Assembly: GCA_903832055.1 (NCBI GenBank)
Contig: CAILAC010000016.1
Span: 744,001 to 808,000 of the forward strand
DNA: 64,000 bases
DNA from: an uncultured Acidobacteriota bacterium
GTDB taxonomy: Bacteria; Acidobacteriota; Terriglobia; Terriglobales; Acidobacteriaceae
Direction: 5' to 3'
Positions 27,631-34,753 of this stretch are shown here, piece after piece. Numbering within the stretch: position 1 is the first letter of the stretch; every line of letters begins with the position of its first letter. The translations under genes were made by a program, and so were the position numbers. The notes under the pieces are model-generated. The model did not search any database, was not told where the DNA came from, and worked only from the letters and a program-made list of their open reading frames with translations.

Positions 27631-29019
27631 ATGGCCACCTCTTCCAGCTACGCATTAGACACCGGACTCCCCTCAAACGTTGCCGCCGAAAAAATGATCC
27701 TTGGCGCAATCCTCCTCGAGAACCAATCCCTCTCTGAAGCCGAAGAGAAACTCTCCCCCGAAGATTTCTCCCTCGACTCTCACCAGCGCATCTACCAGCG
27801 CATGACCGAGCTCGGCGGCACCGGCCACGCCGTCGATCTCGTCACCCTCGCCAACGAACTCGCCAAGTACAAAGAGATCGAGTCCGTCGGCGGCGTCGCC
27901 TACCTCGCCTCGCTCACTGAAGGACTCCCCCGCCGCCCCATCATTGACGAGTACATCCGCATCGTCAAAGACAAAAGCCTCCTCCGCCAGCTCATGCTCA
28001 TCTGCTCCGCCGCCATCGCCCGCGCCGCAGACCAGTCAGAAACCGCCCTCGACGTCCTCAACGCCGCCGAATCCCAGCTCATGGTCGTCGGCGAAAAATC
28101 CATCACCAAGGGCCTCGCCTCCCTTGAAGAAATCGTCGCCGGCTCCTTCGGCACCATTGACAACCTCTACAGTCAGGCCCGCGAAGTCACCGGCGTCGCC
28201 ACCCACTTCACTGAATTCGACAAAATGACCTCCGGCCTACAAAAAGGCGAACTGATCATCATCGCCGCCCGCCCCTCGATGGGTAAGACTGCGTGGGCCA
28301 TCAATATCGCGCAAAACGCCGCCATCAAAGGCAAAGCCGTCGTCGCCGTCTTCTCCCTCGAAATGTCCAAGGAAGCCCTCCTCCGCCGCATGCTCGCCTC
28401 CCAGGCCTGGGTCGATCAGCGCGCCCTCCAGACCGGCTTCCTCGGCCGCGCCGACCAGGAGAAACTCACCATCGCCCTCAGCGACCTCGTCGAATCCAAA
28501 ATCTTCATCGACGACACCCCCGGCATCTCACTCGCAGAAATGCGCGCCAAGACCCGCCGCCTCCGCCAAGCCAACGGTGGCCAGCTCGACCTCGTCCTCG
28601 TCGACTACCTCCAGCTCATGAGCGCCAGCCTCCCCTCCCAGGGCGGCAAACGCCACGAAAACCGCACGCAAGAGGTCTCCGCCATCTCCCGCGGCCTCAA
28701 AGCCCTCGCCAAAGAGATGGAAGTACCCGTCATCGCCCTCTCCCAGCTCTCCCGCGCCTCCGAACGCCGCGGCGACGACAAAAAACCCCTCCTCAGCGAC
28801 CTCCGCGAATCAGGCTCCATCGAACAGGACGCCGACGTCGTCGCCTTCATCCACCGCGAACCCTACTACAACCGCGACCAGGAAATGACCGACGCCGAAA
28901 AAGCCCAGGCAGAAATCATCATCGCCAAACAAAGAAACGGCCCCACCGGCTCCATCAACTTAGCGTTCCTCTCCAAATACACCTGCTTCGTAGACCTCGA
29001 CACCCAACACGCCGAGTAG
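27631..29019 (+). CDS. dnaB: Replicative DNA helicase
   Basis: A 462-residue hexameric helicase: the N-terminal DnaB domain (PSNVAAEKMILGAILLENQ onward), a linker, and a RecA-like motor with Walker A ARPSMGKTAWA near residue 214 and Walker B LVLVDYLQLM near 325. DnaB unwinds DNA at the fork and recruits primase. Length is normal and no intein is present. It is alone here, without rpsF/rpsR/rplI neighbours, and is followed by a repeat-rich intergenic island. Confidence 0.95.
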   Translation: MATSSSYALDTGLPSNVAAEKMILGAILLENQSLSEAEEKLSPEDFSLDSHQRIYQRMTELGGTGHAVDLVTLANELAKYKEIESVGGVAYLASLTEGLPRRPIIDEYIRIVKDKSLLRQLMLICSAAIARAADQSETALDVLNAAESQLMVVGEKSITKGLASLEEIVAGSFGTIDNLYSQAREVTGVATHFTEFDKMTSGLQKGELIIIAARPSMGKTAWAINIAQNAAIKGKAVVAVFSLEMSKEALLRRMLASQAWVDQRALQTGFLGRADQEKLTIALSDLVESKIFIDDTPGISLAEMRAKTRRLRQANGGQLDLVLVDYLQLMSASLPSQGGKRHENRTQEVSAISRGLKALAKEMEVPVIALSQLSRASERRGDDKKPLLSDLRESGSIEQDADVVAFIHREPYYNRDQEMTDAEKAQAEIIIAKQRNGPTGSINLAFLSKYTCFVDLDTQHAE

Positions 29020-29160: not shown

Positions 29161-29201
29161 AAGTACAAATGTACGTTCGAAGTTGCCCTTGCCTTTTTGG
29201 T

Positions 29202-29336
29202 TGTCATTCCCGAAGGGAATCTGCTGTAGTTTTGCCCTCGCCTTTGCCTTTCTGTCTGTCATTCCCGAAGGGAATCTGCTTCTGCTGTTGCTTCTGCCTT
29301 GGCCTTTCCGTCTGTCATTCCCGAAGGGAATCTGCT
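29202..29336 (+). repeat. Three tandem REP-like palindromes
   Basis: Identical palindromic cores (TGTCATTCCCGAAGGGAATC plus TGCT) start at 29202, 29257 and 29313, a period of 55-56 bp. They are separated by pyrimidine-rich spacers built from TTGCCC/TTGCCT hexamers. Read on the minus strand the units encode QIPFGND-like peptides, the same peptide found in the tail of the GIY-YIG protein at 57.7 kb. Confidence 0.88.
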
Positions 29337-29389
29337 GTTCACATCCCCGTAATTCACCCAACAGGCCATCGAACATATGCTTCGTAACA

Positions 29390-30984: not shown

Positions 30985-31794
30985 CTAACCCTGCAGTAAC
31001 AACTGCAAGGCCTCGCGGGCATTTTGCAGGCAGGCCCGCGCCTCATCCTCTGAGAGCAGTCCCTGATGGACTGCTTTCTTGCCAATGTCGTTGACCTGGT
31101 TGGCAAGCCGCGGAAAATCAGGTGCAATGCCCGTTGCCAGCAGGTTGTTATTCACCTCATGCAGCAGATTGCCCAGCGTCGCCGCGTTCCGGTAGCGCGA
31201 ACGGATCAGCTTGCGCAGCGGCTCAGGCAGCTTCTGCTTGATCGCCTCCTCCAGCACGCTGCGGCACATCACTGCGCACGCCGTAAACAGCGCAAAGAAG
31301 TAGCACCGCGTAGCCTCATCCAGATAGCGGTCCGCGTCCTCTGAAGAAGGGCTCGCCACCACGCATTCGCGCAGATGCGTAGCCCGCGCCACAGCTGGCT
31401 CAATGAGATCCAGAAACTCGGCCGCCACCGCCGCCCGCAGCAGGTCATTCTGCCGCGAATCGAGCGCCCGCTGGATCGACTTCCACGCCGGGGCGTGGCC
31501 GTTTCCCGCTTGCTGCAATCGTGTCAGAGAGGTCAGCCGCTGGCGCGCATGCTGGATGAAGCCATGCTGCATCTCATGCGCCAGATGCTCCCACTCTTCC
31601 ACAAACCCATTTGCATCTCGTTCATACCGCTCCCAGAGCTCGTCGTATACGACTGCCGGAAGCACTTCCTTGAGCTGCGCAAAACGCTCGGTGCGCGCCA
31701 GCTCCGCAATGGCCATGGAAAATTCCCGCCCTGGCGCGTTCTCATCCGCCATCTTGAGCAGCAACTCACTCAGTCGGTCAATTTCGATGGCCAT
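30985..31794 (-). CDS. Protein with C-terminal DUF4145/HEPN-like domain
   Basis: About 269 residues from the ATG at 31794. The N-terminal half is helical and acidic without a known motif. The C-terminal half, with CYFFALFTACAVMCRSVLEEAIKQ and LANQVNDIGKKAVHQGLLSEDEARA, has the helical arrangement of DUF4145, a HEPN relative. HEPN domains are often RNases or nucleotidyl-binding modules in defence systems, but the canonical RxxxxH is not evident here. It has no nuclease, helicase or toxin partner beside it. It is the last gene before the composition switch at 31.85 kb. Confidence 0.55.
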   Translation of the reverse strand: MAIEIDRLSELLLKMADENAPGREFSMAIAELARTERFAQLKEVLPAVVYDELWERYERDANGFVEEWEHLAHEMQHGFIQHARQRLTSLTRLQQAGNGHAPAWKSIQRALDSRQNDLLRAAVAAEFLDLIEPAVARATHLRECVVASPSSEDADRYLDEATRCYFFALFTACAVMCRSVLEEAIKQKLPEPLRKLIRSRYRNAATLGNLLHEVNNNLLATGIAPDFPRLANQVNDIGKKAVHQGLLSEDEARACLQNAREALQLLLQG

Positions 31795-31940
31795 TCCGCT
31801 TTGCCTCTCCCACGCGCAGAGCCACAACCAAACTCAACCCTCAGTCTAGGCATGAAATGGCAGATATAGGCGCGGCGGCGGCGGCAAATAGGCGAGCGCG
31901 ATACCGGAACGGGAAGGCTGGTGCCGCTGCCGATTCAGGA
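31795..31940. other. Point of abrupt GC-skew inversion
   Basis: Hand counts on the + strand: 31741-31800 has 21 C and 11 G, 31801-31860 has 22 C and 11 G, 31861-31920 has 26 G and 14 C, 31981-32040 has 29 G and 13 C. The genes on both sides run on the same (minus) strand, so coding direction does not explain it. The change from C-rich to G-rich along the + strand is the polarity of a replication origin; no DnaA boxes were found. It may instead be a rearrangement or assembly junction. Confidence 0.6.
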
Positions 31941-32345
31941 CTACTGGGGCGCTACGAGAGCTACGAGGTCAATTTCGATAAGTACGTCTTTGGGCAGGCG
32001 GGAGACTTCGACGGTGGTGCGGGCTGGCGGCTGGGTGCCGGGGCTGGCGAGGTGTTCGGCGTAGACGGCATTCATGGCGGCGAAGTCGTTGAAGTCTTTG
32101 AGGAAGACGGTGGCTTTGACGACCTGGGCGAGGCTGCTTCCGGCGGCTTCGAGGATTGCTTTTAGATTGAGCAGGACGCGCTGGGATTGTTCGGTTATGC
32201 CGCCGGGAACAACCTGCTGGGTTTCCGGGTCGAGTGCGATCTGGCCGGAGGTGAAAAGGAGGTTGCCGACGCGTACGGCCTGGGAGTAGGGGCCGATGGC
32301 CAGGGGTGCTTCGTTGGTGGAGATGATGGTGCGGGCTTCGCTCAT
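31941..32345 (-). CDS. ridA: RidA-family enamine/imine deaminase
   Basis: A 134-residue protein with the RidA/YjgF pattern: [12 protein letters not shown] at the N-terminus, [35 protein letters not shown] and [20 protein letters not shown], including the arginine and glutamate of the active site. RidA hydrolyses 2-aminoacrylate and other reactive enamines made by PLP enzymes. It is a single gene, divergent from a small membrane protein gene, and its 3-prime end lies beside the composition switch. Confidence 0.93.
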
Positions 32346-32380
32346 GGAATTGATTGTAGCTGGAGCGTGGAGCGGAGGAT

Positions 32381-32396
32381 TGTTACGCGTGTAACA
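32381..32396. promoter_or_regulatory. Candidate operator between ridA and a membrane protein gene
   Basis: A 16-bp inverted repeat TGTTAC-GCGT-GTAACA in the short divergent promoter region. The size and symmetry suit a dimeric repressor, but no regulator gene is adjacent. Confidence 0.35.
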
Positions 32397-32398
32397 TT

Positions 32399-32692
32399 TT
32401 GGGTTCTGAGATGGGAGCGAAAATCGTCAAGGGAATTTGTTGGGTGTGGTTCATTTTGTTGGCGTTGCAGTTGCGGGAATTGACGGGTTTTGTGCATTGG
32501 GAATGGGTTCGCGTGGAACATAGCATTTTTGCTAGTTTTTGGGCGTTTCGGCCGGGGTCATTGCTTCACGTGAGGCGGGTGCCTCTGCGGGCTGGGGCGC
32601 CGCCATATCTTTCAGGGCTGATTCCGGGGATGATTGGTGTGGGTTTGCTGGTGTGTGCGATGTGGTTTGCCCCGAAACCGGGGGCTGAGTAA
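32399..32692 (+). CDS. Small membrane protein
   Basis: 97 residues from a TTG at 32399 (or 93 from ATG at 32411). It has two hydrophobic segments ([16 protein letters not shown] and [18 protein letters not shown]), suggesting two membrane helices. No family is recognised. Support comes from a strong intrinsic terminator starting 43 bp after its stop and from the divergent promoter-like region upstream; no clear ribosome-binding site is visible. Confidence 0.5.
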
Positions 32693-32734
32693 AGGACTTC
32701 GAGGAGCGAACGAAATCAGTTCAGAGCTGAGAGA

Positions 32735-32773
32735 GCCCCATCCAGCCGTTGCAGGCTGAATGGGGCCTTTTTT
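32735..32773 (+). terminator. Intrinsic terminator (+ strand)
   Basis: The stem GCCCCATCCAGCC / GGCTGAATGGGGC with one mismatch and a 6-nt loop is followed by a run of six T. It lies downstream of the small membrane protein gene and converges on the FecR-like gene. Confidence 0.8.
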
Positions 32774-32791
32774 GCGGCATTCGTAGTTGGA

Positions 32792-34753
32792 TTACTCCGG
32801 CTTGGGAGGCGGAATCTTCTTGGGATCCGGCTTCTTGGTGTCTGCGGCCGGAGGTACGGGCCGGGAGGACGGCGGCGGAGCCGGGTGCGCGGCGGGAGGA
32901 AGTGGTTCAGCCTGCTGAGGCCGCACAACTGGCGGTGGTATGGGGCGGGGTGCCGGCTGCGGCGTGGGCTGAGCTGCCGATGGCGGAGGAGTTGGGCGAG
33001 GCGCAGGCATCGGCTGTTGGGCCGGGGGTGTTGGCCGGGGCTGCATGGTCTGCGCAGGAGGCGCCGGGTGGACCACGTTTGGTTGGATGTTCTGAGCCGG
33101 AGGTGCCGGACGGACAACGTTTGGCTGCATCGGTGCAGGAGGCGTGGAGCGGACCGGCTCTGTGGGCACCTTTGCAGCTGGAGGAGTAGCAGCAGGAATG
33201 CTGGGGTGACCGGGCAGCGGCGTTGGGGGAGCAGTTGGCTTGCCGACCACAGGAGTGCTGATTGGCGCGTGATTTGGAAGCGGTTTAACTGCAACTGGAG
33301 GTGTGGCCTTGACCGGGACAGGCGCCGGCTTGGCATTGGGGGCTGCGGGCGCTTGCTGGCCCTGGTGATTGATCAAAACGGGGCGAGCAACGGGAGCACT
33401 GACGGGCTTGGCTACCGGGTGGAGAATTACAGGCTGCGTAGGCATTTTAACGACGGGCGCCTCGGCCTGGATATGCTCAATCTGCCTTGGATCCACCTTG
33501 ACAGCAACAGCCTTGGCGCTGTGTCCGGCGGCCATGTCTTCCGACTTCATGGCGGTAGCGGCGGTGCGGTTGACGTAGGTGATGTTTGTAACGTTGGTGA
33601 TGTTGGTGACGTTGTTGGTGATGTAGGTGTTCTGGATGTGAACGTCTCTGGACTCATGAATATTGGTCTGGTTGATGCGATTGACGTATTCAGGACTCGC
33701 GGGATACCAGGGATGGTAGGCTTCGCCGGGGCCCAGGGGCACCCAAACGGAGAGGCCGAATCCGCCGATGTGAATACCGCCTGCGAAGACTACCTGTGCA
33801 GGTGACCAGACAGGGTGAGCTTCGCGTGCGCCAGGAATCCAGCCCCAGCGACCGTTGATCTGCACCCAGCGACCATAGTGGAAGGGAGCTGCGCCCCAGG
33901 GTTCATCGGCGACCCAGGTCGGTCCATAGTGGGGACGGTTGACCCAGTGTCCATTGTGGTAGGGTGCCCAGCCACGGTCGACGTGGGGGAACCAGATCGG
34001 GCCGTAGTTTGATTCCGGCTGCCAGTCGCCGTTGTCGTCGAGATCTTCGTAGCCTTCCATCTCAGTACTCACGTAGCGGGAAGAGCGGGACTGGTAACGA
34101 TGGGCTTCGATTCCGCCGCTCCAATGCTGAAACTCATCATCGATGCCGGCCTCAACGTACTGGGAGGTAACGGGATTCGTCCCGCTGAGCTGAATGGCCT
34201 GGCCGGAGCCGAGCTCGAGGGCGAAGCCTCCAGCACCGTTGATTTCGACCGGAGTATCGCTGCGGCTGTTGGTGATAACGGTGGCCTGCTGGTCGGGATA
34301 AATGTCAACTCGGAATCCTCCGCGTCCGGCAAGGGTTACGCCGCCATTCGGGGTGCTGACAAAAAGAGACTGCCCCTGCATGAAACCATCGCTGAAGACG
34401 TTCACAGTCCCTTGCGCGACGCCGATTTCGACTCCCTGCTGGTTGACATTGGTGAGGGTTACGTCGGAATTGGGTCCGAAGAATGCGCGGACGCGGCCAA
34501 CCTGGATTTCACCCTGAGCGCGCTGGTCGGTGTAGATGCGATCGCCTGATCCGACGGGTTCATTGGGCTCGGCCTGGCCCCAGTTGTCAGCGCCGTATGG
34601 CTGAATGGAGACATTGCCTTCGAGGTGTGCGAGTCTGCCTGAGCCCGGCGGTGGATCATCCTGGGCGCGCAAGGGGGTTACAGCGAGCGTCATAGCGGCG
34701 AGCGCGCCGGCGATGAGCAAAGAGCGGGAGAGCGATAAAGAATTCAGTTGCAT
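32792..34753 (-). CDS. Exported FecR/DUF6600-type protein with proline-rich tail
   Basis: About 653 residues from the ATG at 34753 (GAGGAACG upstream; a longer frame begins at 34837). A signal peptide (LSRSLLIAGALAAMTLAVTPLRAQ) is followed by a FecR-like beta domain (residues about 35-210, with LEGNVSIQPYG and VNVFSDGFMQG), then W/H/G-rich DUF6600-type repeats (WAPYHNGHWVN, PFHYGRWVQINGRWGWIPG), a stretch rich in Asn/Thr/Val, and a roughly 200-residue Pro/Ala/Gln tail with repeated PAPPAQ motifs. It is likely periplasmic or cell-envelope-associated; the role is unknown. A sigma/anti-sigma partner for the FecR module is absent. Confidence 0.75.
   Translation of the reverse strand: MQLNSLSLSRSLLIAGALAAMTLAVTPLRAQDDPPPGSGRLAHLEGNVSIQPYGADNWGQAEPNEPVGSGDRIYTDQRAQGEIQVGRVRAFFGPNSDVTLTNVNQQGVEIGVAQGTVNVFSDGFMQGQSLFVSTPNGGVTLAGRGGFRVDIYPDQQATVITNSRSDTPVEINGAGGFALELGSGQAIQLSGTNPVTSQYVEAGIDDEFQHWSGGIEAHRYQSRSSRYVSTEMEGYEDLDDNGDWQPESNYGPIWFPHVDRGWAPYHNGHWVNRPHYGPTWVADEPWGAAPFHYGRWVQINGRWGWIPGAREAHPVWSPAQVVFAGGIHIGGFGLSVWVPLGPGEAYHPWYPASPEYVNRINQTNIHESRDVHIQNTYITNNVTNITNVTNITYVNRTAATAMKSEDMAAGHSAKAVAVKVDPRQIEHIQAEAPVVKMPTQPVILHPVAKPVSAPVARPVLINHQGQQAPAAPNAKPAPVPVKATPPVAVKPLPNHAPISTPVVGKPTAPPTPLPGHPSIPAATPPAAKVPTEPVRSTPPAPMQPNVVRPAPPAQNIQPNVVHPAPPAQTMQPRPTPPAQQPMPAPRPTPPPSAAQPTPQPAPRPIPPPVVRPQQAEPLPPAAHPAPPPSSRPVPPAADTKKPDPKKIPPPKPE

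Follow-up and report, generated by a model that had tools for sequence, protein, structure and literature searches.

What process inverts the strand composition of this DNA so abruptly near its midpoint, and does the inversion mark a place where replication begins? The window, by which we mean the whole 64-kb stretch analysed (contig C16, 744,001-808,000), belongs to the genome of a soil bacterium (G000; 4.57 Mb in 18 contigs). GC skew was -0.213 over positions 1-31,850 and +0.226 over 31,851-64,000, with the cumulative minimum of the window at 31,842. All 31 of the 1-kb windows in 1-31,000 were negative and all 32 in 32,001-64,000 positive, and the step at the best split (0.43) exceeded those of all 5,000 shuffles of 500-bp blocks, the largest of which reached 0.28. 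A step fit on third codon positions placed the switch from minus to plus, a feature of no strand, at 31,813-31,956 (support interval; gain 354 log units), which coincides with the intergenic stretch between a DUF4145 gene on the left (30,985-31,827, minus strand, third-position GC skew -0.35) and ridA on the right (31,941-32,345, minus strand, Pfam Ribonuc_L-PSP, third-position GC skew +0.67); a fit of variable width permitted a transition of 5 to 1,000 bp. The abrupt inversion at about 31.85 kb that a first-pass annotation had described was confirmed, and its hand counts of bases per 60 bp (21 C/11 G, 22/11, 14/26 and 13/29) all proved exact on recounting. Across the switch third-position GC skew went from -0.45 to +0.47, third-position AT skew also reversed, from +0.23 to -0.14 (12 kb on each side), and intergenic DNA reversed too (GC skew -0.14 to +0.22). 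The C-rich side (1-31,842), which looks like the territory of a leftward fork, is part of a contig segment that starts at about 739-743 kb, the window itself starting at 744 kb. The G-rich side (31,842-64,000), which looks like that of a rightward fork, is part of a strong segment that ends outside the window at about 816-818 kb; neither side has a strand of its own.

If transcription direction or codon selection produced the skew, gene strand should govern it, and the first and second codon positions of the 793 genes that we predicted on C16 with our own simple gene finder did respond to gene strand. Third positions, however, tracked the local domain (slope 2.05, r 0.82) with a gene-strand effect of only -0.07, and the genes of strong domains lay about equally on both strands, 48% of 242 being codirectional with the skew, which amounts to no leading-strand bias. 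Intergenic DNA, as noted above, reverses as well. We rejected transcription as the cause on the behaviour of the third positions and regard this explanation as hardly credible; the earlier statement that the skew is independent of gene orientation was borne out, since third positions follow the domain and hardly the strand.

An inversion breakpoint or an assembly join at 31.85 kb would also result in an abrupt, strand-independent flip, and the annotation had raised both. Thirteen of the 20 sequences examined, from 12 relatives (L077-L080, L082-L086, G001, G002 and G003; L081 ends short of the locus), had DUF4145 and ridA as neighbours with unchanged orientation, and the dnaB gene for the replicative helicase (27,631-29,019, plus strand) is linked to both in relatives. 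The pair was not seen in the stretches examined from the more distant L087-L092. The proposed comparison of gene order thus found both sides contiguous in 12 relatives, which implies that the two sides of the switch belong together and that no breakpoint or join separates them. Furthermore, the sister species shows the same flip, and sibling jumps elsewhere in the genome fall inside intact genes. A large inversion or a join is contradicted by these observations, and we consider either extremely improbable.

When the stretches of C16 were joined (1.137 Mb), minus-to-plus jumps were observed at about 299.8, 402.6-403.0, 481.9-482.3, 775.84 (the window switch) and 1,036.5 kb, so that several share one contig. 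These five measured 0.32-0.51 with 10-kb arms, against 0.25 for the strongest plus-to-minus step. The largest, at 1,036.5 kb, lies at a parB-parA-rsmG locus, where ParB, ParA-type and GidB domains were recognised by Pfam; parAB-rsmG is a usual neighbour of bacterial origins. Third-position GC skew rose there from -0.56 to +0.43 while AT skew fell from +0.19 to -0.15, and the window jump is alike. To the right of the parAB jump, 18 kb of near-zero skew (1,044,501-1,063,000) lie within the plus domain, perhaps as a recent insertion. Some of the jumps cut through genes: gatB had 31 G/111 C on the left and 135/76 on the right (Fisher p 4e-15), and parA (p 1e-9) and an aminotransferase gene (p 9e-7) were divided likewise, the gene at 403 kb giving p 0.06; all these values are flattering, because the split points were drawn from the same data. 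The transitions occupied 5-100 bp at 482 and 1,036 kb, about 0.5 kb at 403 kb and about 1 kb at 300 kb. Sharp borders were also noticed at some smaller downward steps and at the outer ends of some domains, and a skew of about 0.2-0.3 persisted on both sides of several jumps simultaneously. Jump positions varied between species.

These siblings bear directly on the earlier suggestion that the switch is a replication origin. Its polarity is right and its signature equals that of the parAB-rsmG jump, and this part of the suggestion stood; as the single origin of the replicon by composition it did not hold, since C16 has five such jumps. A cumulative skew for the whole replicon had been proposed as a check, and over the two of 18 contigs that were read it answered in part: the minimum of C16 falls near 1,036.5 kb and not in the window. 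The remarks that the window has no good DnaA-box cluster and no dnaA were both upheld. DnaA boxes showed no excess within the 64 kb, no group of at least three within 600 bp (up to one mismatch) was present in C16 or C12, and dnaA sits on another contig of G000, together with rpmH-rnpA at 56-58 kb of C12 (L006); the window switch therefore adjoins neither dnaA nor rpmH. The rpmH-rnpA/dnaA junction has plus skew to its left and right alike and, with no DnaA-box cluster either, is not origin-like by composition.

Comparison of the skew jumps with one another uncovered a 16-bp palindrome. The parAB locus (C16:1,035,901-1,037,280) carries three identical copies and one variant, and close copies (at most two mismatches) were found in C16 and C12 at the 482-kb jump, the window jump, the C12 jump at 197.3 kb and the end of C12; a weaker copy lies at C16 629.4 kb, where the skew step is small. 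By its match to the parAB-linked copies the palindrome is parS-like. The window copy (32,381-32,396, no strand) is one mismatch from the three identical parAB-locus sites. Outside the parAB locus the palindrome heads a conserved, oriented, dispersed element of about 150 bp, whose copy in the window (32,372-32,522, plus strand, profile match 91.7 bits) lies 0.5 kb from the skew switch. A second conserved block follows at 32,424-32,453, about 28 bp past the palindrome, and further blocks conserved across copies at 32,470-32,497, all on the plus strand. RNAalifold returned the palindrome as the sole fold in the element, with paired changes in it, and no Rfam match was obtained in 31,000-33,500 at E up to 1.

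A profile built from 26 copies gave 21 matches in G000, 19 of them full-length, which were not clustered and were dispersed over 8 of the 18 contigs. Of the 14 other members of the genus, five carry the element, with roughly 20 or more copies each in G001, G002 and the sister species G011, about 5 in G003 and 9 in G013, a fragmented genome; among the remaining nine, seven lacked any match at E 0.001, and one partial match each was seen in G004 and G012. In a family sample of 150 genomes, which was searched with stricter filters and included G009, G012 and G014 and apparently not the element-bearing relatives, G000 was the sole match among the matches listed. The parS-like sites themselves numbered 15-27 in G000, G001, G002, G003, G011 and G013 and 1-3 in the other nine, mostly small genomes; those of G005-G009 adjoin parB.

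Most of the element copies examined coincide with upward steps of skew. The right-minus-left step was positive at 23 of 25 copies in four species (15 of the 19 in G000, 8 in G001 and one each in G011 and G002, one with a 200-bp flank having been dropped), with a mean of 0.140, and reached at least 0.19 at nine of the 25 against 2% of random places. Two copies were slightly negative (-0.019 and -0.002) and five gave only 0.01-0.06. Twenty copies had been located through their sequence and not through a jump; 19 of them were positive, with a mean for the twenty of 0.135 against 0.001 at 268 intergenic places of C16 (p 6e-8); this set is not fully blind, as the skew was known beforehand at three G000 loci and at the G011 and G002 copies. 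The G001 copies are the eight exact matches outside parAB, of about 18 places listed. For the parS-like sites alone, skew was higher on the right than on the left at 20 of 20 (10 in G000, 8 in G001, 2 in G003), and at just 9 of 15 when one site per genome was taken (15 genomes, L290-L304, 1.5-kb flanks). Six control repeats of G000, five of which had been chosen beside smaller up-steps, gave mean steps of 0.064 (15 copies), 0.009 (8), 0.122 (3), 0.208 (2), 0.035 (9) and 0.031 (7), the first of them lying above the intergenic places (12 of 15 positive, p 0.009). This first repeat, of about 155 bp, is dispersed in many genomes of the genus, occupies 29,183-29,339 of the window, and tends to stand at small upward steps. 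The tail side of the element was G-rich in 23 of 25 copies, which we discounted as evidence of polarity because the orientation of this control repeat follows the skew too (down-side positive in 2 of 15). That element and skew step go together in the genomes bearing the element is, taken by itself, a conclusion that we hold with high confidence.

The association does not extend to every strong jump. No element was present at the C16 jumps at 299,851 and 402,962 or at a jump of 0.49 on contig C8 of G009, and at these places (299.9 and 403.0 kb; 210.5 kb of C8) the best matches to the parS-like site had at least 5 mismatches. Over the 580 kb of C8 that were read, big up and down steps were about equally frequent, except for this one up-jump (L173), which is sharp and lies about 14 kb from ridA in a species without the element. 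A repeat beside it was rejected, since its eight copies, the one at the jump included, had mixed signs, four of the eight being clearly negative.

Relatives were then compared at the window locus itself. The element was found there in G000 and its sister species G011 (L066, L077) and was not found at ten other ridA loci (L067-L076). Between DUF4145 and ridA the rise in third-position skew was 1.02 in G000 and 0.91 in G011, against 0.02-0.48 in nine others; among the loci compared, a full flip between the two genes was confined to the two element-bearing sister species. G001, one of the nine, showed a weaker flip without the element there (dnaB -0.35, DUF4145 +0.06, ridA +0.52). Similar observations were made at the gatB loci examined, where G000 and G011 alone had the element and were the two with the full flip, and G014 had a smaller flip without it. 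The sign of the skew in this block varied from species to species. We also counted changes after the split of G000 and G011, at sites with an identical state in every available outgroup (two of five at minimum). Left of the switch, G>A changes (13/118) outnumbered C>T changes (1/94; p 0.004), as did G>C (8/118) the opposite C>G (0/94; p 0.0095), while on the right C>T (19/228) and G>A (53/704) did not differ. The left-flank skew of the outgroups ranged from -0.18 to +0.68, and that of four small-genome species from -0.26 to -0.59; across species that lack the element the left flank thus takes either sign, which leaves its ancestral state uncertain. The left sample comprised 110 sites and the outgroups differ in skew, so the lopsided changes are a pointer and not a proof.

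We tentatively favour reading the switch as a secondary, lineage-specific, bidirectional start of replication tied to the parS-bearing element, a reading that we place somewhat short of an even chance; the start was probably created or stabilised by the element at 32,372-32,522. In place of DNA synthesis, another process of equal strand asymmetry may have gone out both ways. The asymmetry seen, with G and T in excess on the strand that an outgoing fork meets as lagging-strand template, is what replication from a fixed start leaves. DNA synthesis would proceed outward in both directions from about 31.84-32.5 kb, for some 30-40 kb each way, and the C16 segments from 739/743 to 816/818 kb fit such a start with forks of that reach. 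The top strand would serve as lagging-strand template rightward and as leading-strand template leftward, and strand-biased mutation would accumulate into skew. ParB is expected to bind the palindrome, and the element may help forks to start there, perhaps to this day; the link between element and step points to possible help in opening or loading from ParB, or from some partner that recognises the tail.

This reading is favoured by the five up-jumps of C16 without a comparable down-jump, by the third-position GC and AT signature shared with the parAB-rsmG jump, by two sister species in which the element and the full flip occur together, by upward steps at other copies, by jumps inside gatB, parA and the aminotransferase gene together with the preserved DUF4145-ridA neighbourhood, and by an imbalance of post-split changes that is confined to the left side. 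On the other hand, the strong jumps at 299.9 and 403.0 kb and in G009 have no element, and neither have the flips at the G001 locus and at gatB of G014; there is no DnaA-box cluster, and the leading-strand share of genes is 48%. Sharp outer ends of domains are unexpected from simple merging of forks, an unrelated repeat leans the same way, if more weakly, skew was higher on the right at only 9 of 15 parS-like sites when each genome contributed one, seven of the 25 copies had weak or slightly negative steps, and the substitution test has its small left sample and uncertain ancestral state. It is the jumps without element, the copies without jump, the sharp outer borders and the absence of gene strand bias that keep our support tentative.

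Three other accounts were weighed against a secondary start. The jumps might be former positions of a single origin, active one at a time, which carried parS with it as it moved in evolution. Such relics would agree with parS-like sites at several jumps, as is usual for origins, and with jump positions that vary among species, but they fit poorly with the skew of about 0.2-0.3 that flanks several jumps simultaneously, left and right, with changes on the left that are still lopsided after the split, with transitions as narrow as those at 482 and 1,036 kb (although those at 403 and 300 kb are wider), and with some 19 conserved copies, which are many for relics; we judge this account unlikely. 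ParB might instead load SMC condensin at the parS-like sites, so that complexes moving outward, and not replication, make the asymmetry and the domains are condensin domains. The palindrome is indeed within one mismatch of the genome's own parAB-locus sites, and domains measuring tens of kb, some with sharp outer borders, would suit condensin. However, some jumps have no parS, the palindrome alone would not need a conserved oriented tail, and we know of no strand-specific mutational effect of SMC, which makes this a decidedly unlikely cause. Import of long segments of opposite skew from relatives by homologous recombination would leave mosaic borders, also inside genes, and could explain why the sign of a given block varies among species, why some borders of both signs are sharp, and why up and down steps are about equally frequent on C8 of G009. 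Against import, big down-jumps should be as common as up-jumps and C16 has none of comparable size, judged by protein identities the nearest relative does not obviously change across the switch, and the element at the steps is left unexplained; we consider it improbable.

A single starting point for replication is taken as the rule for bacterial chromosomes; archaeal origins usually adjoin Cdc6/Orc1 genes, and yeast, unlike the present case, is a eukaryote with a known initiator. Several origins per chromosome occur in archaea (PMC4595724), and a compositional skew jump marks origins in yeast (PMC3459929), two likenesses to the proposed secondary start in G000. Several bacterial origins per chromosome are not new, having been reported in some cyanobacteria (PMC7198777) and suspected elsewhere (PMC4403523). 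For Synechocystis PCC 6803 and Nostoc PCC 7120 the reported origins are multiple, asynchronous and DnaA-independent (PMC7198777), and G000 resembles them in its irregular GC skew and in a dnaA that is not at a skew switch. It differs in that some of its switches are abrupt and go together with a repeated element, whereas the consulted portion of that report (PMC7198777) names no repeated sequence; the G000 case is read from composition. In Dehalobacter a putative second origin, oriC2, was predicted from DnaA boxes beside parB in a genomic island (PMC4403523). As there, a second local skew minimum is linked to a partition gene, but here it comes without a DnaA-box cluster and in a gene neighbourhood common to relatives. 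Like chromosomal parS of ParABS systems, the G000 palindrome equals, or is 1-2 mismatches from, the sites next to parAB. Caulobacter parS sites, in the passages of the report consulted, cluster about 8 kb from the origin, and the insertions tolerated are restricted (PMC5815017), unlike the roughly 19 dispersed copies of G000, each with a conserved oriented tail. Searches of the open-licence PMC literature brought up no paper on the element or on parS-linked skew domains in Acidobacteria, nor any report of an oriented parS element that is dispersed and stands at skew switches.

A bolder and doubtful extension of the secondary-start reading is that this clade of Acidobacteriaceae replicates, or regularly restarts, from about 20 dispersed origins defined by sequence, the 150-bp element being a ParB centromere site with a tail for unwinding or loading; origin and centromere would then form one duplicable unit. 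For the Acidobacteriaceae group studied here, cumulative GC skew may misplace the origin. The known multi-origin exceptions name no shared sequence in the parts of their reports consulted, whereas here one element predicts about 20 candidate starts, and the genus offers genomes with some 20 copies beside genomes with none; prediction and contrast together make multi-origin replication, or a mutational effect of parS and SMC, testable in one experiment.
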